Assembly: GCF_023701345.1 (NCBI RefSeq)
Contig: NZ_JAMPXE010000022.1
Location: forward strand, 1 to 33,358
Origin: Rhodoferax sp.
GTDB lineage: Bacteria; Pseudomonadota; Gammaproteobacteria; Burkholderiales; Burkholderiaceae_C
Length of the DNA: 33,358 nucleotides
Reading direction: 5' to 3'
The notes beneath the pieces were generated by a model, which was not told where the DNA came from, ran no database searches, and saw only the letters and a program-made list of their open reading frames with translations. Position 1 is the stretch's first letter. The number at the start of each line of letters is the position of its first letter. The translations under genes were made by a program, and so were the position numbers. Shown piece after piece: positions 2,380 to 33,358 of the stretch.

Positions 2380-2387
2380 GGGCTGGC

Positions 2388-3155
2388 ATGACCGATGACG
2401 AGTTGCTGCGCTACTCGCGCCACATCCTGCTCAATGAGCTCGGGATCGAAGGCCAGGAGCGCATCCTGGCGGCGCAGGTGCTCATCATTGGCGCCGGTGG
2501 TCTGGGTTCGCCGGTAGCGCTGTACCTGGGCTCGGCCGGCGTCGGCCACATCACCGTGGTCGATCACGACACGGTTGACATGACCAATCTGCAGCGTCAG
2601 GTGGCCCACACGGTGGACCGGGTCGGCAGCCCCAAGGTGCAGTCGATCCAGTTCGCCATTGCCCAATTGAACCCCGGCGTGCAAGTGACGGCCATCGCCC
2701 AACGCGCCGATGCCGCACTGCTGAACCGACTGGTCGCCCAGGCGGACGTGGTGCTCGATTGTTGCGACAACTTTGCCACCCGGCAGGCCATCAACGCCGC
2801 CTGCGTGGCGCACCAAAAGCCGCTGGTCTCGGGGGCTGCCATCCGTTTTGACGGCCAGTTGAGCGTGTTTGACGCGCGCGACGCCTTGTCGCCTTGTTAC
2901 GCCTGCGTGTTCCCGCCCGAGGCCACTTTTGAAGAAACCCGCTGCGCCACCATGGGCGTCTTTGCGCCACTGGTGGGCATCATCGGCACGATGCAGGCGG
3001 CCGAGGCGCTCAAGCTGATCAGTGGTGCCGGCCGCCCCCTGACCGGTCGCTTGTTGATGCTTGACGGCCGCGCCATGGAATTCACCGAAGTTCGCATCAG
3101 CCGCCACGCCGCTTGCCCGGTGTGTGGCACGCCCCACGCGCCTGTGCTGCCCTGA
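2388..3155 (+). CDS. moeB: E1-like ThiF/MoeB family sulfur-carrier adenylyltransferase
   Basis: The protein is predicted to activate the C-terminal Gly-Gly of a small ubiquitin-like sulfur carrier (MoaD or ThiS) by adenylation. That step belongs to molybdopterin or thiamine biosynthesis. The 255-residue sequence has the nucleotide-binding GAGGLG at residues 35-40, DHDTVDMTNLQRQ (59-71) and DCCDNFATR (124-132). Two CxxC pairs, Cys170/Cys173 and Cys243/Cys246, would hold the structural zinc. Cys186 in ETRCATMG matches the conserved E1-like cysteine. There is no C-terminal rhodanese domain. MoeB and ThiF cannot be separated with confidence by inspection and no moa or thi gene is adjacent, so the symbol is tentative while the family is certain. 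It lies 8 bases after ctpA and is convergent with the nuclease gene (4-base gap). Confidence 0.9.
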   Translation: MTDDELLRYSRHILLNELGIEGQERILAAQVLIIGAGGLGSPVALYLGSAGVGHITVVDHDTVDMTNLQRQVAHTVDRVGSPKVQSIQFAIAQLNPGVQVTAIAQRADAALLNRLVAQADVVLDCCDNFATRQAINAACVAHQKPLVSGAAIRFDGQLSVFDARDALSPCYACVFPPEATFEETRCATMGVFAPLVGIIGTMQAAEALKLISGAGRPLTGRLLMLDGRAMEFTEVRISRHAACPVCGTPHAPVLP

Positions 3156-3159
3156 ACAC

Positions 3160-3645
3160 TCAACGCGCAGCCTGACAGGGACCGTAGCGCTGGCGAAAAT
3201 CGCGCGGCAACAGGGCTCCAGGGTCAGAAAACAGACCAAATCCGGCCGCGCGTGCCGAGGCTTCCTCAATCGCATACGGGCCCGGACTGCCGCGCCAGCG
3301 GCTCGACCAGGCATGGCCGGCACTGACCAAAGCCGCGCCCACATCACGGCCATCGACACGCAGCCGGGCCAGGCCGCGGCCGTAAGTGTCCTGAAAATTG
3401 ACCTGCACCTGCACCGGCTTGCCTGCCACCAGTCCCTGCAGCGCCGCCCGTGCCGCGAGGCCCCCCGCCTGACACAACTCGGGCGCATCCAGCCCCAGCA
3501 AGCGCAGCTTTCTGGGTGCAACGCCACGCCCGGGTTTGACCCACAGGGTGTCGCCATCGGACACATGGGTCACTTCACCAATCCAGACCTTGGCCAGCGC
3601 ACAGCTTGGCAGCAGCCAGCACAGGCATATTATTTTTCGCAACAT
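3160..3645 (-). CDS. Secreted staphylococcal-nuclease-like (SNase) endonuclease
   Basis: This is a predicted exported calcium-dependent nuclease. Residues 1-18 form a signal peptide (MLRKIICLCWLLPSCALA, cleavage before KVW). The remaining 140 residues form an SNase OB-fold domain. The active-site set of staphylococcal nuclease is intact: Arg48, Asp53 and Glu56 in LRLLGLDAPE match SNase Arg35/Asp40/Glu43, and Arg90 in DTYGRGLARLRVDG matches Arg87. SDGDT at 29-33 supplies another metal-site acidic region. It is the last gene of the folE - BLUF - DUF429 - nuclease run and starts 8 bases after the DUF429 stop. Its physiological substrate is unknown; nucleic-acid scavenging is a reasonable guess. 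A cytoplasmic role is unlikely given the signal peptide. Confidence 0.88.
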   Translation of the reverse strand: MLRKIICLCWLLPSCALAKVWIGEVTHVSDGDTLWVKPGRGVAPRKLRLLGLDAPELCQAGGLAARAALQGLVAGKPVQVQVNFQDTYGRGLARLRVDGRDVGAALVSAGHAWSSRWRGSPGPYAIEEASARAAGFGLFSDPGALLPRDFRQRYGPCQAAR

Positions 3646-19749: not shown

Positions 19750-21057
19750 ATGAAATTGAAACTTGCCGCCCTTGCCCTGGGCGCATCACTCTCCCTGGCA
19801 GCTCATGCGGTGACCGAAGTCCAGTGGTGGCACTCCATGACGGCCGTCAATGGCGAATGGGTCAATGACCTGGCCAAGGGCTTCAACGCCAGCCAATCCA
19901 ATTACAAGATTGTGCCCACCTACAAAGGCACCTACGACGAGTCCATGACTTCGGCCGTGGCGGCTTTCCGTGCCGGTAATGCACCGCACATCCTGCAGGT
20001 GTTCGAAGTCGGCACCGCCACCATGATGGCCAGCAAGAACGCCATCGTACCGGTCGGCAAGGTGATGAAAGACGCCGGGCAGAAGTTTGACCCCAAAGCC
20101 TACATATCGGCCGTCGGGGGCTACTACACCGCGCCCAGCGGGGAGATGTTGAGCATGCCGTTCAACAGCTCCACCACGGTTTTTTACATCAACAAAGATG
20201 CCTTCAAGGCGGCCGGACTGGACACCAGCAAGGCCCCCAGCAGTTGGCCCGAGGTCGCCCTGGCCGCCGCCAAGCTCAAGGCCAGTGGCCATAAGTGCCC
20301 GCTGACGATTGCCTGGCAGGGCTGGACCCAGCTGGAAAGTTTTTCTGCCTGGCACAACGTTGAATTTGCCACCAAAAGCAACGGCTTGGCCGGCATGGAC
20401 GCCCGCATGAAGGTCAACTCGCCACTGCATGTGCGCCACATTGAGAACCTGGCCAACATGCACCAGCAAGGTCTGTTTGTCTACAAGGGCCGGGCCAACG
20501 TACCGGAAGCCACCTTTATTTCCGGTGAATGCGCCATGATCACGACCTCGGCCGGGTTCTATGGCAACGTCAAGAAAAATGCCAAGTTCGCCTGGGCTCT
20601 GGCGCCGCTGCCCTACTATCCGGATGTGCCGGGTGCACCGCAAAACACGGTCATTGGTGGCGCCAGCCTGTGGGTCATGGCGGGCAAGAAAGCCGACGAA
20701 TACAAAGGCGTCGCCGAGTTCTTCACTTACATCTCCAGCCCCGAGGTGCAGTCTGCCAGCCACAAGCGCACCGGTTACCTGCCCATCACCACGGCCGCTT
20801 TCCAGTTGACCGAAAAATCGGGCTTCTACAAGGAAAATCCTGGAACTGATGTGGCCGTCAACCAGATGATCCGCAAGGTTACCGACAAGTCGCGCGGCAT
20901 CCGTCTGGGCAATTACGTGCAGATTCGCACCATCGAGGACGAAGAGCTGGAGCAGGTCTGGGGCGGCAAAAAGAGCGCCAAGGATGCACTGGACTCGATC
21001 GTGAAACGTGGCAACGAGTTGCTGGAGCGCTTCGAGAAAGCCAACAAGAAAGGTTAA
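19750..21057 (+). CDS. ugpB: Glycerol-3-phosphate ABC transporter periplasmic binding protein
   Basis: This periplasmic solute-binding protein delivers sn-glycerol-3-phosphate (and probably its diesters) to the UgpAEC importer. The 435-residue precursor has a signal peptide at residues 1-20 (MKLKLAALALGASLSLAAHA, cleavage before VTEVQWWHSM). The mature protein follows the UgpB pattern: WWHSMTAVNGEWVNDLAKGFN, YKGTYDESMTSAVAAFRAGNAPHILQVFEVGTATMM, PFNSSTTVFYINKDAF, AWQGWTQLESFSAWHN and TTSAGFYGNVKKNAKFAWALAPLPYYPDVPGAPQNTVIGGASLWVM. The Trp/Tyr-rich ligand pocket typical of UgpB appears intact. A strong ribosome site, AAGGAGA, lies 4-5 bases before the ATG. ugpA follows after 13 bases. The four-gene set in the same order supports the substrate call. 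Confidence 0.95.
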   Translation: MKLKLAALALGASLSLAAHAVTEVQWWHSMTAVNGEWVNDLAKGFNASQSNYKIVPTYKGTYDESMTSAVAAFRAGNAPHILQVFEVGTATMMASKNAIVPVGKVMKDAGQKFDPKAYISAVGGYYTAPSGEMLSMPFNSSTTVFYINKDAFKAAGLDTSKAPSSWPEVALAAAKLKASGHKCPLTIAWQGWTQLESFSAWHNVEFATKSNGLAGMDARMKVNSPLHVRHIENLANMHQQGLFVYKGRANVPEATFISGECAMITTSAGFYGNVKKNAKFAWALAPLPYYPDVPGAPQNTVIGGASLWVMAGKKADEYKGVAEFFTYISSPEVQSASHKRTGYLPITTAAFQLTEKSGFYKENPGTDVAVNQMIRKVTDKSRGIRLGNYVQIRTIEDEELEQVWGGKKSAKDALDSIVKRGNELLERFEKANKKG

Positions 21058-21070
21058 GCGCTAACCAGAC

Positions 21071-21952
21071 ATGGAAAAGCGCGTTTATTTCAGGTCGGCA
21101 TGGCTGCCGTGGGTGCTGATGGCGCCCCAGGTGGTCGTGATTGTCCTGTTCTTTTTTTGGCCGGCGGCGCAGGCCCTGCTGCAGTCGGTGCAGCAATCGG
21201 ACGCGTTTGGCACCTCGGTCGATTGGGTTGGGCTGGACAACTTCCGCAACCTCTGGAACGACGACACCTACCTGGCCTCGTTTTACACCACGGCCATTTT
21301 TTCAAGTCTGGTGGCGGTGGTGGGCATCAGTGTGTCGCTGTTACTGGCCGTTTTTGCCGACCGGGTTGTCAAAGGGGCCATGACCTACAAAACCCTGCTG
21401 ATCTGGCCCTACGCGGTGGCCCCGGCCGTGGCGGGTGTGCTCTGGCTGTTCATGTTTGCGCCCAGCGTGGGGGTGGTCTCTTACTGGCTGCGCGTTTTGG
21501 GCATTGACTGGAATCACCTGCTCAATGGCACCCATGCCATGACCCTGGTGGTCATGGCCGCCGTGTGGAAGCAGATTTCCTACAACTTCCTGTTCTTTCT
21601 GGCGGGGTTGCAAAGCATTCCCAAGTCCCTGATTGAAGCCGCCGCCATTGACGGCGCACGACCCTGGCGACGTTTCTGGACGATTGTGTTTCCGCTGTTG
21701 TCGCCCACCACTTTTTTCCTGCTGGTGATCAACATTGTTTACGCATTTTTTGACACTTTCGCCATCATTGACGCCGCCACGCAGGGCGGCCCGGGCAAGG
21801 ACACGGCGATTCTGGTTTACAAGGTGTACTTCGACGGCTTCAAAGCCATGGACCTGGGTGGTTCGGCCGCCCAATCGGTGGTGCTGATGGTGATTGTGGT
21901 GGCGCTCACCGTGGTGCAATTCCGCTATGTCGAGAAGAAAGTGAACTACTGA
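21071..21952 (+). CDS. ugpA: Glycerol-3-phosphate ABC transporter permease UgpA
   Basis: This inner-membrane permease pairs with UgpE to form the translocation channel. The 293-residue protein has six predicted transmembrane helices, starting with [29 protein letters not shown] (about 10-38). The binding-protein-dependent transport signature (EAA loop) is [24 protein letters not shown] near residues 194-217. [14 protein letters not shown] and [17 protein letters not shown] are typical UgpA/MalF-type N-terminal features. It follows ugpB by 13 bases without an obvious Shine-Dalgarno sequence of its own, and probably relies on read-through from ugpB. The gap to ugpE is unusually long (169 bases) for such an operon and is GC-rich, as described separately. 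Confidence 0.95.
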
Positions 21953-22121
21953 ACTATGACGCCCCCACGCTTGTCACTTTGTGTACTACGCTGTACGTGC
22001 CTCAACCAGAGCTTACGGCTCTTCGCCCCGTCCCACCCTGCACTGGCAGGCTGGGAGCCGCGGGCCTCAGCCCCGAGGGGGCCATGCCTTGCTTGGGGCG
22101 GCCCGGCGCGGCGGCAACACC
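21953..22121 (+). repeat. GC-rich repeat-like insert between ugpA and ugpE
   Basis: This 169-base gap is noncoding by homology. Its second half contains CCCCGAGGGGGCC (about 22071-22083) and then GCTTGGGGCGGCCCGGCGCG (22091-22110). From memory these look like an intergenic repeat common in Comamonadaceae genomes; the first half (ACGCTTGTCACTTTGTG) looks like a degraded copy of its left part. The palindromic core CCCCGAGGGG could fold into a hairpin in the transcript. The segment is open in the ugpE frame and would add 47 basic residues if translated. Family membership needs a genome search. Confidence 0.5.
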
Positions 22122-22973
22122 ATGGTTGAACGCCGCCCCTGGCTGACGGTGCTGTCACATGCCGTGATGATTTTGGGCGTGCTGGTGGTGGCCTTTCCGC
22201 TGTACCTGACCTTTGTGGCCTCCACCCAGACCTCGCAGGCCATCGTGCAGACCCCCATGCCGCTGTTGCCCGGTACTCACCTACTTGAAAACTATACCGC
22301 AGCCTGGAACGGCACCGGGGGTGGCTCAGGCTCCAAGGCGCCGGTCGGCCAGATGATGACGGTCAGCCTGATTTCGGCCCTGATCATTGCCGTTGGCAAG
22401 ATTGCAATTTCGCTGCTGTCAGCCTTTGCCATTGTTTATTTCCGCTTTCCGTTTCGCATGTTTTTCTTTTGGGCCATCTTCATCACGCTGATGCTGCCGG
22501 TGGAGGTGCGTATTGGCCCGACCTACAAAGTGGTGTCGGACCTTGGCATGCTCAACAGCTATGCCGGCCTGACGATTCCACTGATTGCCTCGGCCACCGC
22601 CACCTTTTTATTCCGGCAATTCTTCCTGACCGTTCCCGAGGAGTTGGTCGAGGCCGCGCGCATGGATGGCGCCGGTCCCATGCGGTTTTTCAAGGACATT
22701 CTGGTGCCGTTGTCCAAAACGTCGATTGCCGCACTGTTTGTGATCCAGTTCATTTACGGCTGGAATCAGTACCTGTGGCCCTTGCTGGTCACCACCAACG
22801 AGGACATGTACCCGGTGGTGATTGGCATCAAGCGCATGATCTCCGGCGGTGACTCCGAGATGCAGTGGAACATCGTCATGGCCACCGCCGTGCTGGCCAT
22901 GATTCCGCCAGCCCTGGTGGTGATGCTGATGCAGAAATGGTTCGTCAAGGGACTGGTGGATACTGAAAAATAA
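22122..22973 (+). CDS. ugpE: Glycerol-3-phosphate ABC transporter permease UgpE
   Basis: This second inner-membrane permease of the Ugp importer partners UgpA. The 283-residue protein begins [35 protein letters not shown], a first transmembrane helix typical of UgpE/MalG. It shows six helices in all and the EAA loop [23 protein letters not shown] near residues 183-205. The family block [26 protein letters not shown] follows near 225-250. The open frame continues 47 codons upstream through the repeat-like gap ([19 protein letters not shown]...). That stretch is arginine-rich, lacks homology and is read-through of the repeat, so I start at the ATG at 22122. No strong Shine-Dalgarno sequence precedes it (CGGCAACACC). 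ugpC follows after 10 bases. Confidence 0.92.
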
Positions 22974-22983
22974 ACAACAAAAT

Positions 22984-24006
22984 ATGGCCTCAATCACTTT
23001 AAAAAACGTCATCAAACGCTACGGCCACGGCAAAACAGCCAATCAGGTCATCCACGGCATCAACGCTGAAATTTTGCATGGCGAATTTGTTGTCATCGTC
23101 GGCCCCTCTGGTTGCGGCAAATCCACGCTGCTGCGCATGGTGGCGGGTCTGGAGGAAATCAGCGACGGCGACATTTCGATCGGCGACCGGGTCGTCAACC
23201 AGCTCGAACCCTCCGAGCGCGACATTGCCATGGTGTTCCAGAACTACGCGCTGTATCCGCACATGAGCGTGTTCGACAACATGGCCTATGGCCTGAAAAT
23301 TGCCAAGGTACCCGTCGATGAGATCAAGGCACGGGTGGACAAGGCCGCCAAAATTCTGGAAATCGGTCCGTTTCTCAAGCGCAAGCCGCGTGAGCTTTCT
23401 GGTGGCCAGCGCCAGCGGGTGGCCATGGGCCGCGCCATTGTGCGGCAGCCGCAGGTGTTCCTGTTTGACGAGCCGCTAAGCAACCTGGACGCCAAATTGC
23501 GCGCCCAAACTCGCCTTGAAATCCAGAAACTGCACCGCGAACTGGGCATCACTTCGTTGTTTGTCACGCACGATCAGGTGGAGGCCATGACACTGGCACA
23601 ACGCATGATGGTGATGAACGCCGGCGTCATGGAGCAATTTGGCACGCCCGAAGAGGTGTACAACCGCCCCGCCACGACCTTTGTCGCCAGTTTCATGGGC
23701 TCGCCACCCATGAACCTGTTGAAAAACGCCCCTGACGCACCGCCAAACACCATCACCGGTATACGCCCCGAACATCTGGACATCACCCCCAGTGGCTGGG
23801 CTTTGGAAGTGGAAGCGGTAGAAATGCTGGGTGCCGAGCGGCTCACCTATGGCCGCTGGGCGCATAGCGTGGATGATGAGCTGGTCATCATCCGCACCGA
23901 AGAGTCGAACACTGCGCCCGCCCTGGGCAGCACCATTTGTGTCACGCCGCGTGCCGCCAGGATTCACCACTTTGACGCAATGACCGGCAAGCGCGTTGAG
24001 CGCTAG
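22984..24006 (+). CDS. ugpC: Glycerol-3-phosphate ABC transporter ATP-binding protein UgpC
   Basis: This cytoplasmic ATPase powers the Ugp importer. The 340-residue protein has Walker [10 protein letters not shown] at residues 40-48, the Q-loop in [21 protein letters not shown], and the signature [14 protein letters not shown] near 138-151. Walker B is [12 protein letters not shown] near 159-170 and the H-loop is [15 protein letters not shown] near 193. A TOBE-type C-terminal domain (about 245-340, [34 protein letters not shown]) is characteristic of the MalK/UgpC subfamily. It is the last gene of the four-gene operon; no ugpQ phosphodiesterase follows. A weak terminator-like hairpin begins 5 bases after the stop codon. 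Confidence 0.95.
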
Positions 24007-24219: not shown

Positions 24220-26028
24220 GTGGCCAAATCTCCAATCCAGGATTACCTTCAGGCTTTACACGCCCGTTTCAGTGGCTTGACGTCTGGCAGGGTGGCTGAT
24301 TACATTCCAGAACTGAGTCTGGCTGACCCCGGGTGGTTTGGCATTTGCATCGCCACCCAGGATGGTCATGTCTATGAGGTGGGCGACTGCAGCCAGCCCT
24401 TCACCATCCAGTCCGTCTCCAAACCCCTGACTTACGGGCGGGCGCTTGAACAGCATGGCGAAGCCGCGGTGCTTGAAAAAATCGGCGTCGAACCTTCAGG
24501 CGACGCTTTCAATGCCATCAGCCTGCACCCCCAAAGCGGCACGCCGCTCAATCCACTCATCAATGCAGGTGCCATTGCCGCCTGCGGCCTGGTTCCTGGC
24601 GACAGCATGGAGGACAAGACCGCGACCATACTGGAAACCTTCTCCCGTTACGCCGGCCGCCAGCTTGACATTGACCACAAGGTTTATGAGTCAGAAAGTG
24701 AAACCGGGCACCGCAATCGCGCCATCGGCTGGATGCTGCGCAATTTCTCGGTTATTGAAGATGATCCCACGGCCACCCTGGAAACCTACTTTCAGCAGTG
24801 CTCGATCCGCGTCACCTGTCGCGATCTGGCCATCATGGGCGCCACCCTCGCCAACGGCGGCGTCAACCCGATCACAGGCCAACGCGCCATCCCTGAGAAA
24901 TACGTTGCCAACGTCCTTTCCGTGATGGCCACCTGCGGCATGTACGACGCCTCGGGCGACTGGCTTTACCGTACCGGACTGCCCGCCAAGAGCGGTGTCG
25001 GCGGCGGCATCATGGCGGTGCAGCCGGGTCGCCTCGGGATTGCCGTCTTCTCGCCCAGACTCGACCAACAGGGCAACAGCGTTCGCGGGCTCGCCGTCTG
25101 CCATGCCTTGACGGCCGATCTGGGCCTGCACATGTTTGATGCATCGCAGCGTGCCATCCCGGCCATCCGCAGGGCCACCACCCGACGCTCGGTCAAATCC
25201 AACCAGCGCCGTGCTCAACAGGCCAATGACTACCTCTTGAGCGTCGGCAAAAGATTGCGCGTTTTCCATCTTCATGGTGCCCTGACCTTCGCCTCCATTG
25301 AGTCGGTTGTCCGAACCCTGACGCTGGAATCAGCCAGCACCAACGTTTTCATCGTCAACCTCAAACTGGTGCAGGGGATTGACCGCGCGGCAGCGAATTT
25401 TCTGGCTGGCATACGGGCCGAGCTATCGGGTCTTGGCAAAGAATTGATCTTTACCGAGGCAGGTGCCTGCTGGCAACCCCTGATTGGCGCGGGTGTTGAC
25501 CGCGAGGCTTTTTTTTCTGATGATGATTTTGCGCTGGAGTATGGAGAAAACCGGATTCTTGCCAACCGTTTTCCGAATCCTGCCGGGAGCAGCCAGACCT
25601 CTTTGGCTGAATGTGATCTGTTTCTCGGACTCAGCACACAAGAGTTGGCATGGGTCGATCAGTTGCTGGCCTCCCGAACGTACGCACAAGGTCAAACCAT
25701 CATCACCGCTGGCCAGGCCTCGAACGAACTGTTTGTCTTGACGGCAGGCGCCGCCATGGTCAGCATCTCAACCCAGGACGGTATCGCCCGACTCGACGCC
25801 TTCTCATCGGGCGCGACCTTTGGCGAGGTGGCTTTTCTGGACCGTTCACCGCGTTCGGCCAACGTCACGGCGCTCAGCCCGGTGGCGTGCCGCGTGCTGA
25901 GTCGCGAAGCCTTTGACCAGCTCGATACCCAGTCGCCCACGATCAAGATTCGCCTGCTCAGCAACCTGGCCGGCAGGCTGACCAGCATGCTGCGCCAGAA
26001 TGGCCGTGAACTCGCAGCCCTGAAATAA
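24220..26028 (+). CDS. glsA: Glutaminase A fused to STAS and cyclic-nucleotide-binding domains
   Basis: A 602-residue three-domain protein. Residues 1-305 are a serine-dependent glutaminase hydrolysing glutamine to glutamate and ammonia. The catalytic Ser65-x-x-Lys68 lies in FTIQSVSKPLTY; TPLNPLINAGAI (Asn115) and TGLPAKSGVGGGIMAV are further hallmarks. Residues about 345-430 form a STAS domain (LRVFHLHGALTFASIESVV, FIVNLKLVQGIDRAAANFLAGI). Its usual D-S-S-G phosphosite reads D388-R-A-A, so a SpoIIAA-style phosphoswitch is unlikely. Residues about 465-590 are a cNMP-binding domain. Its phosphate-binding cassette is FGEVAFLDRSPRSA with Glu536, Arg545 and Ser546, the set used by CRP-type cAMP binders. 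The start is GTG without a good Shine-Dalgarno sequence; no closer start exists. I infer that glutaminase activity is gated by a cyclic nucleotide. Confidence 0.9.
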   Translation: MAKSPIQDYLQALHARFSGLTSGRVADYIPELSLADPGWFGICIATQDGHVYEVGDCSQPFTIQSVSKPLTYGRALEQHGEAAVLEKIGVEPSGDAFNAISLHPQSGTPLNPLINAGAIAACGLVPGDSMEDKTATILETFSRYAGRQLDIDHKVYESESETGHRNRAIGWMLRNFSVIEDDPTATLETYFQQCSIRVTCRDLAIMGATLANGGVNPITGQRAIPEKYVANVLSVMATCGMYDASGDWLYRTGLPAKSGVGGGIMAVQPGRLGIAVFSPRLDQQGNSVRGLAVCHALTADLGLHMFDASQRAIPAIRRATTRRSVKSNQRRAQQANDYLLSVGKRLRVFHLHGALTFASIESVVRTLTLESASTNVFIVNLKLVQGIDRAAANFLAGIRAELSGLGKELIFTEAGACWQPLIGAGVDREAFFSDDDFALEYGENRILANRFPNPAGSSQTSLAECDLFLGLSTQELAWVDQLLASRTYAQGQTIITAGQASNELFVLTAGAAMVSISTQDGIARLDAFSSGATFGEVAFLDRSPRSANVTALSPVACRVLSREAFDQLDTQSPTIKIRLLSNLAGRLTSMLRQNGRELAALK

Positions 26029-26039
26029 CACGCATTCAT

Positions 26040-26088
26040 GTTCAAATGCCTTCACCTTGAACGGTACATCTACTGTTCGGTGTGAACA
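26040..26088. promoter_or_regulatory. Cluster of four GTTC/GAAC half-sites upstream of the HD-like gene
   Basis: Two inverted repeats lie in the 75-base gap. GTTCAA (26040-26045) pairs with TTGAAC (26057-26062) across 11 bases. TGTTC (26074-26078) pairs with GAACA (26084-26088) across 5 bases. The shared half-site and the position before the GTG suggest an operator or a leader structure. It is not a known site that I can name. Confidence 0.35.
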
Positions 26089-26103
26089 TAGGAGCTGTTT
26101 GAC

Positions 26104-27477
26104 GTGCCGATCGATACGGTCCATCGCATGAATGACTGGTTTGACCATGCCTTCCAGGGCTTGTCAGTGCATGTGCCCCCTGCCGAAGTACAGACAATGG
26201 CCATGCTGGTGCACCAGTGCATGGAAGAAAAAACGCGGACTTACCACACCGCTTTTCATGTTCTTGGCTTGTGCGAAGGCATGCAACCGATCCAGGTGCT
26301 GGCTGCACTTTTTCATGACGTGGTGTTTTACCAGGCTGACGGGGGGATCCCGGCTTGCGTGTCCACCTTGCTGGAGGATGTGGCGCGACCTGAAGCAAGG
26401 TTCTTGCGGCTGCTGGAAATTGCGCCCGATGACCGGGCGATTGCCCTCTGTGTTGATATTTTTGGTTTTCATCCAGGACAATGCCTGTCGCCGCGCAATG
26501 GCATGAATGAATTTCTGAGTGCCGTGGTCGCCGCTCGGCTGCTGCAAGCGCATTTGAGCGATGCGCAGTTGATGGCCGTGGTGGCCTGCATTGAATTGAC
26601 CATCCCTTTTCGCGCACCCGATGCGAAGGGCAACACCGCAGCGCAAAGGCTGGCCCAGCGTGTTCAGGCACGTTGTATCAGCCTGGCACCCGCCCTGTTT
26701 GACAAGGACCGGCCAGGCGCTGCATTTGTCAAGACCACAGTGACAAACGCGGTGGACCTCGCCAATCGGGACGTGACCGGCTTCATCGAGGCAGCCCCCG
26801 AGTACTGCTTGATCAACTCCATGTTGCTGGTCGAAGAATCCATGATGCCGCGGGCCGCTTCTTGCGAAAAGTCCCTGCTGGCATACCGCAAGGCGCTGCT
26901 GGCCATGGACATTTTCTTAAGTCAGCTCAACCCGGCCTGGGTAGGTCAAAGCTATGAGGACCACCCCACCGCCGAAGCCGTCACACAGATGCAGATGACG
27001 GCCCGACAAAACATTGCGTTTGTACGTGACTACCTGGCGACCGTGCTGAGCACTGTGGCCATCATTGAGGCGTTGACGCGAAGCACGGGCACCGTCTGGC
27101 CCATGGCCCTGTTTCTCGACAGCATGCGCTGCGCAGAGGGTGGTCCGTTTCCAGCCCCCCCTAACAAACCCATCCTCCATGCCGATTTGCGCCAGTTGCT
27201 CAGACACGGACTTGCACCTGAGGGGAATCCCGGTCTGGGCGCATTGCCTCTCACCGCCGACATCTATGGTTTCCTCGGTCAGGTGGCCACCCAGCAAGTC
27301 CGGCAACAGGCGAAGCAGATGTTTGATGGCATTTTGACGCCGCTTGCATTTTTGCAAATGCTGGACTGCAACATGGTCAGCGCCATCATCCGCAACATGG
27401 CAAAAATTGACACGCCACACCGGGAACAACTTTTGGCTCTGGAACACAAGCTGAATGCCGTCAGCATGCCTATTTAG
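26104..27477 (+). CDS. Uncharacterised protein with HD-hydrolase-like N-terminal signature
   Basis: I do not recognise this 457-residue protein as a named family. The N-terminal part has TRTYHTAFHVLGLCEGMQPIQVLAALFHDVVFY, with His48, His52 and the His71-Asp72 pair. This resembles the metal-binding H...HD pattern of predicted metal-dependent HD phosphohydrolases (YHNxxH...FHD). A further part, VVACIELTIPFRAPDAKG near 160-177, could supply later metal ligands. The C-terminal 200 residues are helical and unfamiliar. No signal peptide or transmembrane helix is seen. The start is GTG with GGAG 9 bases upstream; ATG at 26128 lacks a ribosome site. It follows the glutaminase fusion by 75 bases on the same strand and may be cotranscribed. 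A phosphohydrolase or phosphodiesterase role is possible but unproven. Confidence 0.6.
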   Translation: MPIDTVHRMNDWFDHAFQGLSVHVPPAEVQTMAMLVHQCMEEKTRTYHTAFHVLGLCEGMQPIQVLAALFHDVVFYQADGGIPACVSTLLEDVARPEARFLRLLEIAPDDRAIALCVDIFGFHPGQCLSPRNGMNEFLSAVVAARLLQAHLSDAQLMAVVACIELTIPFRAPDAKGNTAAQRLAQRVQARCISLAPALFDKDRPGAAFVKTTVTNAVDLANRDVTGFIEAAPEYCLINSMLLVEESMMPRAASCEKSLLAYRKALLAMDIFLSQLNPAWVGQSYEDHPTAEAVTQMQMTARQNIAFVRDYLATVLSTVAIIEALTRSTGTVWPMALFLDSMRCAEGGPFPAPPNKPILHADLRQLLRHGLAPEGNPGLGALPLTADIYGFLGQVATQQVRQQAKQMFDGILTPLAFLQMLDCNMVSAIIRNMAKIDTPHREQLLALEHKLNAVSMPI

Positions 27478-27561
27478 GCCCAGGGACATTACACGGCCAG
27501 CGTCAGCATTGACCGTCTTGCCAGATTACTTTTGAGATGAATCCGCCTTTGTTAAATTTTT

Positions 27562-27590
27562 TTGTAAAAAAGTGTGTTTATTGTTATAAG
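27562..27590 (+). promoter_or_regulatory. Strong sigma-70-type promoter for fecR - tolC-ompA
   Basis: TTGTAA (27562-27567), a 17-base spacer and TATAAG (27585-27590) make a good promoter in a sharply AT-rich tract. A start site near 27597 would give a leader of about 20 bases carrying the ribosome site AGGAAGAG before the fecR ATG. The composition stands out from the GC-rich surroundings. Confidence 0.65.
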
Positions 27591-27615
27591 TACGTTCTTA
27601 AAGGAAGAGATAAAA

Positions 27616-28089
27616 ATGAAAACCACCATCCACCACTATCTGACTGCAGGCGTCTTGTTCATACTCACAGGGACCATGCAGCTGTCACATGCCCAGGCCG
27701 AGAAAGTCGGAACGGTCAAAACCGTGAGCGGAGACGCCTGGGTCATTACGGGCGGGCAAAGCGTCAAGGCCCAGGTTGGCACCAACGTCCTCCTCGGAAG
27801 CCAACTCAAGACCGCCAAGGCCGCCAGCATGGGTGTGACCTTCAAGGACAACACCTTGATGTCGTTTGGGCCCGACACTGAATTGACGGTGGATGAATAC
27901 CTGTTTGCACCGGCACAAGGCCAGTTCAAACTGGGGGCCAGGCTGGACAAGGGCAGCCTGAACTACCTCTCCGGTGTGATCGCCAAGCTCAAACCTGACG
28001 CGGTCTCGGTCAAAACGCCCACCGGGACCATTGGTGTGCGGGGCACGCAATTCCTGGTCAACGTGCAAGCACCTGCATCGAGCCATTGA
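27616..28089 (+). CDS. Periplasmic FecR-domain protein
   Basis: The 157-residue precursor starts MKTTIHHYLTAGVLFILTGTMQLSHAQA, a signal peptide cleaved about residue 28. The mature part is a single FecR domain: VGTVKTVSGDAWVITGGQSVKAQVGTNVLLGSQLKTAKAASMGVTFKDNTLMSFGPDTELTVDEYLF, then GSLNYLSGVIAKLKPDAVSVKTPTGTIGVRGTQFLVNV. Unlike the FecR of iron-citrate signalling, there is no cytoplasmic anti-sigma part and no transmembrane anchor after the signal peptide, and no sigma factor is adjacent. Secreted FecR proteins of this type commonly sit beside CHASE2 cyclases, as here (cyclase convergent, 2 kb away). An upstream ATG at 27574 lies between the -35 and -10 boxes and is rejected. The start has a clear AGGAAGAG ribosome site. 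The tolC-ompA gene follows after 37 bases. Confidence 0.88.
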   Translation: MKTTIHHYLTAGVLFILTGTMQLSHAQAEKVGTVKTVSGDAWVITGGQSVKAQVGTNVLLGSQLKTAKAASMGVTFKDNTLMSFGPDTELTVDEYLFAPAQGQFKLGARLDKGSLNYLSGVIAKLKPDAVSVKTPTGTIGVRGTQFLVNVQAPASSH

Positions 28090-28126
28090 TTTCTCACCCA
28101 TCAAACTATTATTTTCAGGGGCTCGC

Positions 28127-30082
28127 ATGACATCAAATACAAAATTGACAGGCCTGATGCTGGCCCTGGTGACCGCTTGGGGCGCCCAGGCACAAGCCCT
28201 GCCAGAAACACTCGTGCAGGCAGCGCGCCAGGCGGTACTGACCAACCCTGATGTACAGGCGCGCTGGAATGGGTTCAAGGCTGCCGGCAACGAACAGGAC
28301 ATCACACGCGCAGGTTTTCTGCCCCGGCTTGATGTACAAGCTTCGGCAGGCAGAGAAAGTCGCAAAACCCCATCCACCGATTACGGCAAATACAACGCCA
28401 AATCGTCCGGGATCACGCTGAACCAGATGCTGTTTGACGGCATGTTTACCGCCAGCGAGGCAAAACGCCTCGGCTATGCCAAACTGACGCGTTACTACGA
28501 ACTGGCCGAAATTTCCGAGACCACCGCCATGGAGGCAGTTCGCGCCTACATTGACGTGACACGCTACCGCGAACTGGTCGATGCCGCCACGCAAAATTAC
28601 GTCGAGCACAAACAGGCGGCACAACTGGTCGAAGAGCGCGCCTCCTCCGGCGTGAGCCGCGGCGCCGATGTCGAGCAGGCCAACGGCCGCCTGGCGCTGG
28701 CGGAATCCAGCCTGCTGACCGAGCTGACCAGCCTGCATGACGCCAGTGCGCGCTACCTGCGGGTCATCGGAGAAAAGCCCCCGGCCAGTCTGCCGGGCCT
28801 GCCCGAACCTTTCACGCTGGGCAAGATGCCCAGTTCCACTGACGCCTTGCTGCAGGAGGGGTTGCCAGCCAGTCCGACCCTGAACGCCGCTTTGGAAAAC
28901 GCCCGCGCCTACCAACAGGCGCGTGCATCGCGGCAAGCCGCCTTCATGCCGCGACTGGACTTTCGCGCCTATCAAAACCGCGACAAGAATCTGGATGGCA
29001 TCGCGGGCAATACCAAAGTCAGTGGCATGGAACTGGCGCTGAACTACAACCTTTACCGTGGTGGTGCCGACGGCGCCAGAAAAAACCAGGCAGCAGACCA
29101 ACAAGCGCAGGCGCGCGACCTGCAGGACAAAGCCTGCCGCGATGTACGCCAGACCCTGACCATTGCCTACAGTGATGTGCTCCGCCTGAACGAGCAGTTG
29201 CGCTACATGGACCAGCACCGCCTGTCGACAGAAAAATCACGCGAGGCCTATCGCCAGCAGTTTGACATCGGCCAGCGTACCTTGCTGGATGTGCTGGACA
29301 GCCAAAGCGAATATTTTGAGGCCACCCGCTCCTACATCAACGCCCGTCACAACCAGGCTGCTGCGCAGGCGCGCACACTGGCTGGCATGGGCCAACTGGT
29401 GACGGCACTGGGGGCGAAACGCGCCGACGTGCCTGCAGCAGAAGCGGCCGGGCAGGACCGCAGCCGCATGGACACAACGGACTTATGCGCATTTGAAGTG
29501 ACCGAGGTGGACAGTGTCGACGCCATCAAGGCCAGGTTTACAACGCCAACTGCCTCAGCCGGTTCCTACGTTGTGTTGATCCCGAGTCCTGACGGCAGCA
29601 TTGGACGGATCACCGTGCAAAGCAAACAGGGCGAGCAGGTGCTGATCCAATCGGGGCAGGCTGTGCCCCTGGCTGGCGGCGCAAGCTTTGAGGTGGACAA
29701 GAAAAAAATGCAGCAGGATTTTGGCGCGGCAATGGCTGCCCGGCCGCCAGTTCCTGAACAGTTTGTGCTGTACTTCCTCCGGGGTGGTACGCGACTCACC
29801 CAAGAGTCTCAGGCCTTGTTGCCCAAAATGCTGGCGCGCGCCAAAGAACGCAAAATGCTCGATGTCTGGCTGGTGGGTCACACCGACACCGTTGGCGAGC
29901 CAAACCGCAACCATGCACTGGGGCTCAAACGCGCACAGACCATTGCCAGACAGTTTCAAAAACTGGGTTTGAAAGATATCGCCATGACCATCGAATCTTA
30001 TGGCGAGCGCAGCCCGCAGGTTGCAACCCCGGACGAAACCAACGAGCCGCGCAACCGTCGTGGTGAAGTGACTTTGCGTTAA
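28127..30082 (+). CDS. TolC-family outer-membrane channel fused to an OmpA peptidoglycan-binding domain
   Basis: A 651-residue chimera. After a signal peptide (MTSNTKLTGLMLALVTAWGAQAQA), residues about 25-430 are a TolC/LapE-like type I secretion outer-membrane protein. It shows both internal repeats (LTNPDVQARWNGFKAAGNEQDITRAGFLPRLDVQASAG and ASPTLNAALENARAYQQARASRQAAFMPRLDFRAYQNRD), YNLYRGGADGARKNQA, and FDIGQRTLLDVLDSQSEYFEATRSYINARHN. Residues about 455-651 hold an OmpA-associated region and an OmpA C-terminal domain: LYFLRGGTRLTQESQALLPKML, then VGHTDTVGEPNRNHALGLKRAQ. Asp587 and Arg602 have the 15-residue spacing of the OmpA diaminopimelate-binding pair. The frame is continuous with no stop or frameshift. 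The ribosome site AGGGG precedes the ATG at 28127; the longer frame overlaps fecR. No inner-membrane T1SS ABC transporter or adaptor gene is adjacent, so the exported substrate is unknown. Confidence 0.9.
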   Translation: MTSNTKLTGLMLALVTAWGAQAQALPETLVQAARQAVLTNPDVQARWNGFKAAGNEQDITRAGFLPRLDVQASAGRESRKTPSTDYGKYNAKSSGITLNQMLFDGMFTASEAKRLGYAKLTRYYELAEISETTAMEAVRAYIDVTRYRELVDAATQNYVEHKQAAQLVEERASSGVSRGADVEQANGRLALAESSLLTELTSLHDASARYLRVIGEKPPASLPGLPEPFTLGKMPSSTDALLQEGLPASPTLNAALENARAYQQARASRQAAFMPRLDFRAYQNRDKNLDGIAGNTKVSGMELALNYNLYRGGADGARKNQAADQQAQARDLQDKACRDVRQTLTIAYSDVLRLNEQLRYMDQHRLSTEKSREAYRQQFDIGQRTLLDVLDSQSEYFEATRSYINARHNQAAAQARTLAGMGQLVTALGAKRADVPAAEAAGQDRSRMDTTDLCAFEVTEVDSVDAIKARFTTPTASAGSYVVLIPSPDGSIGRITVQSKQGEQVLIQSGQAVPLAGGASFEVDKKKMQQDFGAAMAARPPVPEQFVLYFLRGGTRLTQESQALLPKMLARAKERKMLDVWLVGHTDTVGEPNRNHALGLKRAQTIARQFQKLGLKDIAMTIESYGERSPQVATPDETNEPRNRRGEVTLR

Positions 30083-30100
30083 CACCCCCCGGTGCGCTTG

Positions 30101-32245
30101 CTACTTCTCTGACATCACGATCAAATCGCCGGTCTGGTTCTCTTGCAGTCGCTGCAAGTGCAGCCGAACCAGCGGATCCTCGGGCCGCTCCCGGGCCAAC
30201 TGCTCAAACGCGACCCGGGCTGCCACCGGGTCTTGTGTGAGCAGCGCGTAAGCGGCTGCGTACTCTGGATCATCCAGCGGCGCGCCAGGAACTTCCAGTC
30301 CATTGTGAATAGGCTGAAACACCATCAATGGCTCCGTCTTGCCCTTGAGCACCAGGCGACCCACAGGACGGGTAACAACGCCGGTACAGCCTGACAAGGT
30401 GTTCTCGGAGACACAGATTCGCGTACCGAGATGCTTATTGACACTTTCCAGGCGCGACGCCGTGTTGATCGTATCCCCGAGGGCACGGTAGTCAAACATG
30501 TGCGAACCACCAAAATTGCCGACGATGACAGTTCCCGAATGCACCCCGATGCGGGTCTGGCCAAAAGCAAGTCCCTTGGCCCCCCTTATGTCATCCGCGT
30601 AACGCGAGGCAAAGCGCTGCATGGCAATCGCGCAACTCAAGGCACGCTGGCGGTGGTCGGGCTGCTGCACGGGCGCCGAAAACATGATCACCACGGCATC
30701 ACCAATGATGCGCTCCAGCGTGCCATTGAAGGAAAACGCAATACTGATCATTTGATCCAGGTAGGCATTCAGCAGCGCCACCACTTCGGCTGGATCGATC
30801 TTTTCCATCAAACTGGTAAAACCCGCCAGATCGGTAAAAATGAAGCTGCATTCCTGACGTTTTCCCCCCAGTTCAAGTTGATCCGGATGCTCAACAATGT
30901 AGGTCACCAGATTGGGCGACACGTAGCGCGAAAAGGCCTCACGAACAAAGCGCTGGCGGCGTTCGGTTGAAAGATGGTGCATGACACTGGACAGCGAAAA
31001 GGCTACAAAAATGCCCAGGGCAGGCGTGACCGGGTCGAGCAGCAAGCGGTGGTCGATAAAGGCCAACCAACCAGCCCAGATGACGCCACCGATCACCAGT
31101 AAGGTCACAAGGGCAGAGACCAGCGCGCCTGTCATCAGTGCCAGCGTGCCAAGCGCCAGACCACCAATGACGATGGTCAGGGCTTCGATCGAATTGGCCC
31201 AGGCCGGACGATAGAGATGACTGCCTGTGAGCACCTGTTCGAGCAACTGCGCATGGGCCTCAACCCCTGGCATGACACCGCCAAGCGGACTGAAGCGCAG
31301 ATCCATCAGGCCCTGGGCAGATGTGCCCACCAGCAGCAGGGATCCCTGTAATTCGGCATCCGGAATTTCTCCCGCCAGAATTTTCCAGGCCGGGATGGTG
31401 CGCTCCTTGACGGGTCCGGTAAAGTGAACCCAGGCCTCGCCCGCCGCAGTGGTCGGCACGACAAACTGGCCAATTTTCACCTCGGTCATGCCAACACCCG
31501 GGGTTTCTGAGGTGCGCAGCATGTAGTTTTGCGCCCCCTGCCCCACCCGCAAAACTTCCGCCACCAGCGATGGCACCAGGGTGTCGCCCAACCGCAACAG
31601 CAGCGGCACGCGGCGCACCACGCCATCGTTGTCAGGCACAAACGTCAACACGCCGTTACCTGCGGCGGCCGCACTCAACAACGGCAAGGACGGTACCGCC
31701 CGGCTGAAGGCATGGGCAAAGGGCAAGGCCGACTCACCCATGCTGACGTACCGGTACTTCTGGGCTGGCAAAGCCAGACCGGTGCCTTCGCGTTCAACCG
31801 AGAAACCCAGCACCACGCCGCCGGGTTCCAGCGCAGCTGCAAACAGATCATCATGGTCCGGCAGGCCGGCAATACTGTGCTGTGCTGAGGTGGGCAGGCT
31901 CCAGATATTGAGCATGGCCTTGGGCGAGGTCCGGTCGGGTTCGGCAAACAACACGTCAAAGCCAACCGCCGCCACCCCGGCCTTGCGCAAGCGTTCCACC
32001 AGCTCTGCAATCCTGCTGCGGGGCCAGGGCCATTGACCAACTTTGGTCAGACTTTCCTCATCGATGTCAATGATTCTTACCGGTACCGGCTGGTAGACAC
32101 GCGGGTGAACTCTTTGGTATTGATCAAACACCGCCTGACGCAAGGTTTGCATCAAGGGCGGATCAATCAGCAGAAGGGCGGCACCGATACCGACGGCCAA
32201 CAATGGCATCAGTATGCTCAAGCTCAAATGAAACCAACGACGCAT
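30101..32245 (-). CDS. CHASE2 sensor class III adenylate/guanylate cyclase
   Basis: A 714-residue inner-membrane signalling enzyme. One N-terminal helix (8-28) leads into a periplasmic CHASE2 sensor domain (about 30-345, with VRIIDIDEESLTKVGQWPWPRSRIAELVERL and VGFDVLFAEPD). Three membrane helices follow at about 352-420, then a linker and a class III cyclase domain at about 463-645. Metal-binding Asp472 (FIFTDLAGFTSL) and Asp516 (IIGDAVVIMF) and the transition-state pair Asn594/Arg598 (GDTINTASRLE) are present, so it should be active. By manual alignment the base-specifying positions read Arg512 and Arg587 instead of the usual Lys and Asp/Thr, leaving ATP versus GTP uncertain. A short TPR-like tail ends the protein. 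The ATG at 32245 has AAGGA 8 bases upstream, better than the ATGs further out. Convergent with tolC-ompA (18-base gap). Confidence 0.92.
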   Translation of the reverse strand: MRRWFHLSLSILMPLLAVGIGAALLLIDPPLMQTLRQAVFDQYQRVHPRVYQPVPVRIIDIDEESLTKVGQWPWPRSRIAELVERLRKAGVAAVGFDVLFAEPDRTSPKAMLNIWSLPTSAQHSIAGLPDHDDLFAAALEPGGVVLGFSVEREGTGLALPAQKYRYVSMGESALPFAHAFSRAVPSLPLLSAAAAGNGVLTFVPDNDGVVRRVPLLLRLGDTLVPSLVAEVLRVGQGAQNYMLRTSETPGVGMTEVKIGQFVVPTTAAGEAWVHFTGPVKERTIPAWKILAGEIPDAELQGSLLLVGTSAQGLMDLRFSPLGGVMPGVEAHAQLLEQVLTGSHLYRPAWANSIEALTIVIGGLALGTLALMTGALVSALVTLLVIGGVIWAGWLAFIDHRLLLDPVTPALGIFVAFSLSSVMHHLSTERRQRFVREAFSRYVSPNLVTYIVEHPDQLELGGKRQECSFIFTDLAGFTSLMEKIDPAEVVALLNAYLDQMISIAFSFNGTLERIIGDAVVIMFSAPVQQPDHRQRALSCAIAMQRFASRYADDIRGAKGLAFGQTRIGVHSGTVIVGNFGGSHMFDYRALGDTINTASRLESVNKHLGTRICVSENTLSGCTGVVTRPVGRLVLKGKTEPLMVFQPIHNGLEVPGAPLDDPEYAAAYALLTQDPVAARVAFEQLARERPEDPLVRLHLQRLQENQTGDLIVMSEK

Positions 32246-32327
32246 TGTGTGGTCCTTCATACGGCTGAAATAATGAACGCGGATCAATCGTTGTCATGCC
32301 GCTGATCTGTTTGAGATTCAGACAGAA

Positions 32328-32417: not shown

Positions 32418-32446
32418 ATTGTAATGGGCTACTTATGATGACTCAG
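32418..32446 (-). promoter_or_regulatory. Candidate tRNA promoter overlapping the hrcA 3' end
   Basis: On the minus strand TACAAT (5 of 6 for -10) lies 13 bases before the tRNA 5' end. CTGAGT (3 of 6 for -35) is 17 bases further upstream inside hrcA. Transcription would begin near 32411. The weak -35 keeps this tentative; the tRNA could instead be read through from hrcA. Confidence 0.4.
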
Positions 32447-33358
32447 CGCGTTGCTGACCAATTTGGACGTGATATCCACAATCTGGATCATGCGGTCATA
32501 AGCCATGCGGGTGGGGCCGACGACGCCCAGCGTGCCCACCACCTGACCATCCACCTCGTAGGGTGCGCTGACGATGGAGAGGTCTTCAAATGGCACCACC
32601 TGGCTTTCGCCCCCAATGAAAATGCGCACCCCTTCGGCCTGGCCGGTCACATCGAGCAAACGCATGAGCTGGGCTTTTTGCTCGAACAGGTCAAAGGCGC
32701 GGCGCAGATGGCTCATGTCGTTGGAGAAATCACTGACCGACAGCAGATTTCTCTCGCCGGAAATGATCACTTCGTCCTGCGCTTCGGTCATGGCCTCGGT
32801 ATTGGCCGCCACGGCGGCGTTCATCAGGCTGGCAATTTCGCTGCGCAAGGAATCCACCTCGTTCTTGAGCCGCTCGCGCACCTGCTCAATCGCCAGGCCG
32901 ACATAGTTGGTGTTGAGGTAGTTGGCGGCTTCCACCAGTTGCGACTGGGTGTAATCGACCTCGGTAAAAATGACCCGGTTTTGCACGTCGCCCTCGGGTG
33001 ACACGATGATGACCAGCAGGCGCCGCTCGGACAGCCGCAAGAACTCGATATGCCGGAACACCGAGGTGCGCTTCGGCGCAATGACCACGCCGACAAACTG
33101 GGACAGGCTCGACAGCAGATTGGCCGCGTTGGAGATCACTTTTTGCGGCTGGTCATGCGCCAGGCTGGGCGTGCCGATGTGGCCGCGCTGCACCGTGAGC
33201 ATGGTGTCGACAAACAGACGGTAGCCGCGCGCCGTGGGAATGCGTCCGGCCGAGGTGTGGGGGCTGGCAATCAGGCCCAGTTCTTCCAGGTCGGACATCA
33301 CGTTACGAATGGTCGCCGGTGACAAATCCAGGCCCGAGGCGCGCGACAAGGTGCGCGA
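32429..33358 (-). CDS. hrcA: Heat-inducible transcription repressor HrcA (5' end outside window)
   Basis: HrcA represses groESL and dnaK-type operons by binding CIRCE elements; its folding depends on GroEL. About 310 residues are present and the frame is open to the window edge ([10 protein letters not shown]...), so roughly 30 N-terminal residues are missing. The TTG at 33349 is not a real start, since family homology continues before it. The visible winged-helix part is [51 protein letters not shown]. It is followed by the HrcA core with [38 protein letters not shown] and the C-terminal [46 protein letters not shown]. No CIRCE element was found in the window. The tRNA gene follows 24 bases downstream on the same strand. 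Confidence 0.96.

Follow-up and report, generated by a model that had tools for sequence, protein, structure and literature searches.

The window analysed here, 33,358 nucleotides long, is one entire contig (C184) of a 3.42-Mb, 224-contig genome, 90.6% complete, of a freshwater Rhodoferax sp. It carries a locus of five genes (Table 1), encoding a glutaminase fused to STAS and cyclic-nucleotide-binding domains (GlsA-STAS-cNBD, where cNBD stands for the cyclic-nucleotide-binding domain), an HD-like protein, a FecR-domain protein, a TolC-OmpA fusion and a CHASE2-domain class III nucleotide cyclase. A previous reading of the letters without database searches (the sequence-only reading) had proposed that these genes link the cell envelope to metabolism through a second messenger. 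Pfam matches and open reading frames (ORFs) place all five at 24220-32287, in agreement with that reading; it had closed the locus at 32245, which does fall within the cyclase but is an internal ATG of an ORF whose longest form starts at 32287, and either start may be correct. On the plus strand the order from 19750 is ugpBAEC, glsA-STAS-cNBD, the HD-like gene, fecR and tolC-ompA. The cyclase follows on the opposite strand, as had been read, convergent with tolC-ompA at a distance of 18 bp, and is followed by hrcA. Intergenic gaps measure 75 bp between glsA and the HD-like gene, 138 bp between the latter and fecR, and 37 bp between fecR and tolC-ompA; from these sizes, glsA with the HD-like gene and fecR with tolC-ompA could each be co-transcribed.

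Table 1. Genes of the locus, followed by the intergenic gap and the flanking genes; positions refer to the window.
Feature	Position	Strand	Basis
GlsA-STAS-cNBD, proposed effector	24220..26028	+	Pfam, TIGR03814, PDB sequence matches, cassette
HD-like protein, 457 aa, proposed signal-terminating enzyme	26104..27477	+	AF2 model, Foldseek/VIA, invariant residues
FecR-domain protein, 157 aa, probably periplasmic	27616..28089	+	PF04773, 42.9 bits
TolC-OmpA fusion, 651 aa: outer-membrane channel and peptidoglycan-binding-type domain	28127..30082	+	PF02321, PF00691, TIGR01844
CHASE2 class III nucleotide cyclase	30101..32287	-	Pfam, alignments, hydropathy
Gap between the HD-like gene and fecR, AT-rich, 138 bp	27478..27615	+	Sequence reading, gap size
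ugpBAEC glycerol-3-phosphate transporter; neighbour outside the module	19750..24006	+	NCBIfam UgpB, UgpA, UgpE and UgpC above cut-off
hrcA; chromosomal neighbour outside the module	32429..33349	-	PF01628, TIGR00331 above cut-off

The cyclase consists of a CHASE2 domain (199 bits, residues 38-378) and a Guanylate_cyc catalytic domain (76 bits, residues 478-655). Hydropathy marks hydrophobic segments at residues 18-49 and 366-413, so that CHASE2 lies between membrane segments, as expected of the class. Taking a match with an E-value of 1e-120 or better as an orthologue, we found the cyclase in 37 of 89 genomes of the genus and in 33 of 399 sampled genomes of the family, representing 20 of 141 genera; the 34 loci from other genera that we compared come from 30 genomes. 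The metal-binding residues D486 and D530 are present at all 71 loci (37 in the genus and 34 in other genera), in agreement with an alignment to CyaB, and the transition-state residues N608 and R612 at all 70 loci that reach them. The base-selecting positions, R526 and R601, are both arginine at 71 of 71 loci, whereas 20 of 20 paralogous CHASE2 cyclases have lysine and threonine there and none has the double arginine. These paralogues, which also serve as the control below, are the 20 best-scoring ones of the same genus (18 genomes, 31-34% identical) and not a random draw. In class IIIb cyclases the second base-selecting position is a threonine. Adenylyl cyclases are described as keeping lysine and aspartate at the two sites, and guanylyl cyclases as replacing the lysine with glutamate, in the available text of PMC4215837. 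With arginine at both positions, the product of the window's cyclase is uncertain. In EaPycC, which makes cCMP, the excerpted account lists F100, R142 and Q144 as CTP-binding and D102 and D146 as metal residues (PMC11224242); by offset, F484 and R526 of the cyclase match F100 and R142, with I528 in the place of Q144. The paralogues too carry phenylalanine at the F100 position, so the likeness to EaPycC comes down to one telling residue of three. One orthologue, in the single-contig genome G478 (L101:9068-11206), is broken by an in-frame stop.

We considered which genes accompany the cyclase. Gene maps came from a greedy longest-ORF caller that misses genes in high-GC loci (several rows of one map set came out empty, and the maps of L073 and L077 showed no focus gene); for the counts, the 6 kb on either side of each cyclase were therefore all scanned in the same way, with HMMs in six frames. 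Several loci stop at contig ends. Among the 37 genus loci, FecR was found at 29, an OmpA domain at 29, both at 26, TolC at 12, a cNBD at 22, the HD-like protein at 9 and the glutaminase at 6. At the 34 loci from other genera the corresponding figures are 30 for FecR, 19 for OmpA, 19 for both, 4 for TolC, 4 for a cNBD, and none for the HD-like protein or the glutaminase. The 20 paralogous loci gave FecR at 13 and no OmpA, TolC or cNBD. The OmpA counts separate genus loci from paralogues with a Fisher p of 2.6e-9, a test that ignores phylogeny. Since FecR occurs at 13 of 20 paralogue loci, its proximity to CHASE2 is general, which bears out the FecR-CHASE2 association that the sequence-only reading had noted in other genomes; OmpA neighbours and, within the genus, cNBD neighbours instead mark this cyclase family. 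As judged from gene neighbourhoods, the FecR-domain protein, an OmpA-domain protein and the CHASE2 cyclase are the conserved core of the locus.

The two envelope partners differ in how constant they are. The likely fecR start is 27616, and a signal peptide can be seen by eye in the protein, although the hydropathy threshold did not flag one. The TolC-OmpA protein, with a likely start at 28127, scores 143.5 bits for PF02321 (OEP) and 53 bits for PF00691 (OmpA) and exceeds the TIGR01844 cut-off. It is no rare chimera: both domains occur in 119 of the 120 homologues that were listed out of 1893. Many cyclase loci have no TolC, and in many orthologous loci proteins of about 200 aa that match only the OmpA part (Pfam was run on one) stand in its place; thus, the TolC channel is a variant of the OmpA-type partner. 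The TIGR01844 match and the many homologues named 'adhesin transport system outer membrane protein' by JGI would also fit a LapE-like outer-membrane component of type I adhesin secretion, with the cyclase as an adjoining biofilm regulator, and so would a weak match of FecR to the LapA retention module (27 bits, where the cut-off is 50) and the role in Burkholderia biofilm of an operon with a CHASE2 kinase and FecR (PMC5192318, in its available text). We regard this as improbable, since the 84 matches to an LssB-type exporter include none above cut-off in the 90.6%-complete genome (9.4% may be missing), no adaptor and no ABC exporter besides the ugp importer was recognised among the proteins scanned at the locus, and it is OmpA, near 48 of 71 cyclase loci, rather than TolC, near 16, that accompanies the enzyme.

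A second kind of neighbour is a gene for a cNBD protein, found at 22 of the 37 genus orthologues and at none of the 20 paralogues (Fisher 2.8e-6, again ignoring phylogeny). The cNBD background, measured in 18 genus genomes chosen partly for having a cNBD neighbour, is 232 matches or about 13 per genome, so that chance alone would place about 1.2 matches in the flanks scanned for the genus, a level that the clustering exceeds. The 7 neighbour domains used to build the cNBD model come from genus loci that were themselves counted, and the model may therefore favour the genus set over the family and paralogue sets. A candidate response part, which the sequence-only reading had seen in the glutaminase, stands repeatedly beside the cyclase in the genus. 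By Pfam these genes have five architectures: glutaminase-STAS-cNBD, as in the window (STAS just under cut-off), with related fusions in L024 and L152 (both with no STAS match); SulP-STAS-cNBD (L022:6336-8510 and L202:2774-4984); cNBD-patatin, of the type in which a cNBD is joined to an NTE P-loop-patatin, beside the cyclase in other genera (L193, L202, L214); cNBD-GGDEF (L035, L036, L037); and a cNBD alone (L030, L031, L033, L069, L199). On a tree of the 71 cyclases, built by a quick method with SH-aLRT support only, the presence or absence of a cNBD neighbour has to change 11 times, and well-supported branches force at least 8 of these changes, which argues for repeated gain or loss of the association. 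On this tree G488 (L093) is labelled as having a cNBD on the strength of a second contig (L071), and the cyclase of G195 (L209) counts as 'none' despite a GlsA on another contig (L152). Genes with GAF and HD_5 (HD-GYP-like) domains instead occupy the same slot, directly 5' of the cyclase, at four loci of other lineages in the genus (L025:10795-12960, L098:11082-13340, L023:52-3078 and L062:10010-13090), which suggests a link to the turnover of cyclic di-GMP (c-di-GMP).

In the window this slot is filled by the glutaminase fusion. GlsA matches PF04960 (404 bits), PF00027 (cyclic mononucleotide (cNMP) binding, 60 bits) and PF01740 (STAS, 22.1 bits, just under the 22.6 cut-off), and belongs to glutaminase A by TIGR03814 (362.6 against a cut-off of 255.4); its PDB sequence matches are glutaminases and PKA regulatory subunits. 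The phosphate-binding cassette FGEVAFLDRSPRSA is kept, including the Glu and Arg (GE...PRSA) expected of a cNMP-binding domain. Like the glutaminases of NCBIfam NF002134 (GlsA-STAS), it pairs a glutaminase with a C-terminal region and matches the model over residues 3-412; unlike them, it scores 442.6 against a cut-off of 557 and has the additional cNMP-binding domain. The fusion occurs in 9 of the 89 genus genomes, on the contig of the cyclase in 6 of them and there in two different positions. In G000, G003, G473 and G483 it lies upstream of the HD-like gene; the G483 frame is broken (L072), with residues 2-368 and 451-602 matched in separate open frames, which points to either gene disruption or faulty assembly. 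The copies in G020 and G462 belong to a second GlsA type, which shares 44-45% identity with that of the window and diverges from the 5' end of the cyclase. In G488 the fusion is upstream of the HD-like gene, fecR and tolC, with the cyclase on another contig, and in G459 and G493 it lies away from the cyclase. Across the family, 13 of 399 genomes, counting that of the window, match the whole fusion, and the cyclase is present in three of the other 12 (G195, G237 and G100); the family-level searches scored few candidates in each genome and may have missed some. Related STAS-cNBD matches lie near GlsA-STAS-cNBD in L146, L150, L151 and L153 (Pfam was run on L146 and L150).

The HD-like protein gave no match in Pfam or NCBIfam scans, and a search of PDB sequences with its profile returned 0 matches at E 1 and 0 at E 10. 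Its AF2 model has a pLDDT of 86 over the whole protein and 91 over the domain, and both the Foldseek and the VIA lists for it are headed by phosphodiesterase (PDE) catalytic domains (8-14% identity, rmsd ~5 Å). Among 34 aligned rows, considered as linear positions only, the invariant residues include H48, H52, H71, D72, N135, E136, E164 and D223. In its predicted fold, its H-x3-H and HD motifs and its late Asp, the protein resembles class I PDEs (PF00233; PDE2, PDE4, PDE7 and PDE9), from which it differs in its lack of a Pfam match, its low identity and an extra C-terminal region; the residues after the HD also depart from the eukaryotic PDE motif. PDEase_I genes are rare in a sample of the phylum, with 1 of 299 above cut-off, and for this reason no bacterial PF00233 set was obtained for profile comparison. 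The model thus predicts a fold like that of class I cNMP phosphodiesterases, and makes plausible the signal turnover that the sequence-only reading had allowed for. The low identity, the large rmsd, the lack of a PF00233 match, the few unrelated chains among the first 50 Foldseek matches and the conserved NEFLS motif, which we take to resemble those of other HD hydrolases, give weight to a different assignment: the protein could be another HD-superfamily phosphohydrolase, acting on nucleotides or alarmones, whose likeness to PDEs reflects a shared helical fold. This is a substantial possibility, if somewhat short of an even one.

The HD-like gene is found in 18 of the 89 genus genomes and in 3 of the 399 family genomes, the window's own included. 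It tracks the closest relatives of the cyclase: where the cyclase is at least 73% identical, 13 of 14 genomes have the gene, against 5 of the 75 remaining ones. In 14 of the 18 genus genomes that carry it, it adjoins fecR; in G459 it flanks a cyclase of 52% identity on the opposite side. Distant homologues (34%) with the same invariant motifs occur away from the cyclase in two loci of other genera (L042 and L043).

We suggest that the locus encodes a modular unit for cyclic-nucleotide signalling, in which the core is often joined by a cNBD gene that varies between lineages, here GlsA-STAS-cNBD together with the protein of PDE-like fold; on the gene content, our confidence in this reading is evenly balanced. 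Several observations weigh against it. The cyclase has neither the usual Lys/Thr base contacts nor the canonical adenylyl-cyclase ones (Lys with Asp or Thr), and the Fisher tests take no account of phylogeny. Outside the genus a cNBD is near just 4 of 34 cyclase loci, within it 15 of 37 loci have none within 6 kb (some end at contig ends), and in all three cNBD-GGDEF neighbours the cassette Arg is missing from its usual position. A PF00233 match is absent from the HD-like protein and from the rest of its genome, its Foldseek E-values exceed 0.001, and its presence within 6 kb at 9 of the 37 loci in the genus and at none of the 34 outside means that it is not a core part. For GlsA, the search at the chosen threshold gave no cyclase match in 9 of the 12 genomes of other genera that carry the fusion, few candidates having been scored in each, and the family-level association with the cyclase has a p of 0.063 when the window's own genome is excluded. 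In G459, moreover, a glsA of the window's type adjoins ugp and hrcA with no module present, so that part of the glsA linkage may reflect a shared locale.

This last case raises the alternative that only FecR, the OmpA protein and the cyclase form a functional unit, GlsA and the HD-like protein being residents of the ugp-to-hrcA region with other roles. Besides G459, where ugp-glsA and hrcA persist without the module, two loci (L066 and L067) carry the module without glsA, and the cyclase family is near the GlsA fusion in just 1 of 12 other-genus cases (G195); in L144 the catalytic domain is matched more weakly (31%), within a long frame that carries histidine-kinase Pfam domains. We nevertheless consider this alternative rather unlikely. 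Within the genus GlsA is restricted to cyclase-bearing genomes (9 of 9; hypergeometric 2.0e-4, without phylogeny), the second GlsA type in G020 and G462 sits at the other end of the locus, and G195, of another genus, has GlsA together with the cyclase: there GlsA, FecR, TolC-OmpA and the CHASE2 part of the cyclase lie within 5.2 kb in a rearranged order. Co-occurrence beyond close relatives, on which the sequence-only reading had rested the gene half of its test, therefore holds for four of the five components, the HD-like protein not being among them. To return to the modular unit, the idea of that reading is largely supported at the level of gene neighbourhood, with the correction that the five genes do not form one fixed unit: TolC is often missing, and on their distribution (9 and 18 of 89 genus genomes) GlsA and the HD-like protein are optional parts of the module.

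The flanking sequence adds little to this picture. A separate fecR promoter in the AT-rich gap is possible from the sequence, and the promoter scan found no site within those 138 bp. Over the region, promoter-like sites are somewhat above chance (7 against 2.8 expected) and terminator-like sites are not (9 against 10.4), and the scan gave no site marking an operon end. A shared CRP-type operator was tried and rejected, as TGTGA-N6-TCACA with up to 2 mismatches matches 12 times in the window against 14 expected. The ugp genes do not adjoin the module in L003/L021, L066, L067 or L068. In G459 (L156) a solute-binding protein and a GGDEF-EAL protein lie between glsA and hrcA in place of the module. 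At 2376-3566 of the window, a 396-aa minus-strand ORF with no Pfam match overlaps other ORFs.

Several described systems resemble parts of the locus. The S. meliloti cyclases CyaD1, CyaD2 and CyaK, which likewise carry a periplasmic CHASE2 sensor on a class III cyclase, perceive their signal via the outer-membrane protein NsrA (PMC13001267, in the text available), and by analogy provide a precedent for such sensing. In that system, too, a cNMP receptor reads the output, as we propose here; in contrast, NsrA is termed a beta-barrel protein, unlike the partners at our locus, the receptor Clr is a CRP-family transcription regulator instead of an enzyme-cNBD fusion, and the available account mentions no linked FecR, GlsA or PDE-like gene (PMC13001267). 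The Burkholderia BiofilmReg operon shares a FecR-domain protein (there LysM-FecR) beside a CHASE2 sensor, with a histidine kinase and response regulator as output where the window has a cyclase; its orthologues are absent from Comamonadaceae according to the accessible part of PMC5192318. Pycsar shares the two-part logic of a class III cyclase and a cNBD effector in its excerpted description (PMC11224242), and R526 precedes the second metal Asp by 4 residues, as R142 of EaPycC does D146. In contrast to Pycsar, the locus has a membrane CHASE2 sensor, FecR and OmpA partners, metabolic effectors and an Ile where EaPycC has Q144; Pfam found no TIR domain in the window's five genes, and the hydropathy scan flagged no hydrophobic segment in GlsA. 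A defence-system reading was dropped, since the PADLOC matches, of PycC models to the cyclase (best 1.6e-18) and of PycTIR to the GlsA cNBD (6e-13), are to shared domains only.

The comparative data are likely best read as a sensor-cyclase core with an exchangeable cNMP-responsive effector, which here would be a glutaminase accompanied by a likely signal-degrading enzyme. The signal, the product, binding, direction of control and turnover are all matters that we infer. In such a model, FecR and the OmpA part would convey to the periplasmic CHASE2 domain what condition the outer membrane or wall is in, and the cyclase would then produce a cyclic mononucleotide. This would bind the cNBD of GlsA and alter its glutaminase activity (glutamine to glutamate and ammonia), and the HD-like protein would hydrolyse the signal. 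A bolder extension, which we offer as a long shot, is that double-Arg CHASE2 cyclases constitute a distinct envelope-sensor family making a non-canonical cyclic nucleotide such as cCMP, with swappable cNBD enzymes that control glutamine, lipid or c-di-GMP metabolism or anion transport, and, in some lineages, with clearance of the signal by a bacterial class I PDE-like enzyme; this would amount to a Pycsar-like logic turned to housekeeping or envelope stress.

In the PMC literature searched, outside which many subscription papers lie, we found no description of the glutaminase-STAS-cNBD combination, of a CHASE2-adenylate cyclase with TolC, of a FecR-adenylate cyclase association with OmpA, or of patatin/cNBD genes linked to a CHASE2 adenylate cyclase. 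If the proposed module is correct, a cyclic nucleotide would connect the state of the envelope directly with the activity of metabolic enzymes, no CRP-type transcription factor intervening, and there would be a natural series of cNBD fusions (glutaminase, SulP-family permease, patatin lipase and diguanylate cyclase) built on one cyclase family. With FecR and OmpA as candidate partners, the question of what signal CHASE2 senses would become testable, and the double-Arg active site makes the identity of the nucleotide itself a question.

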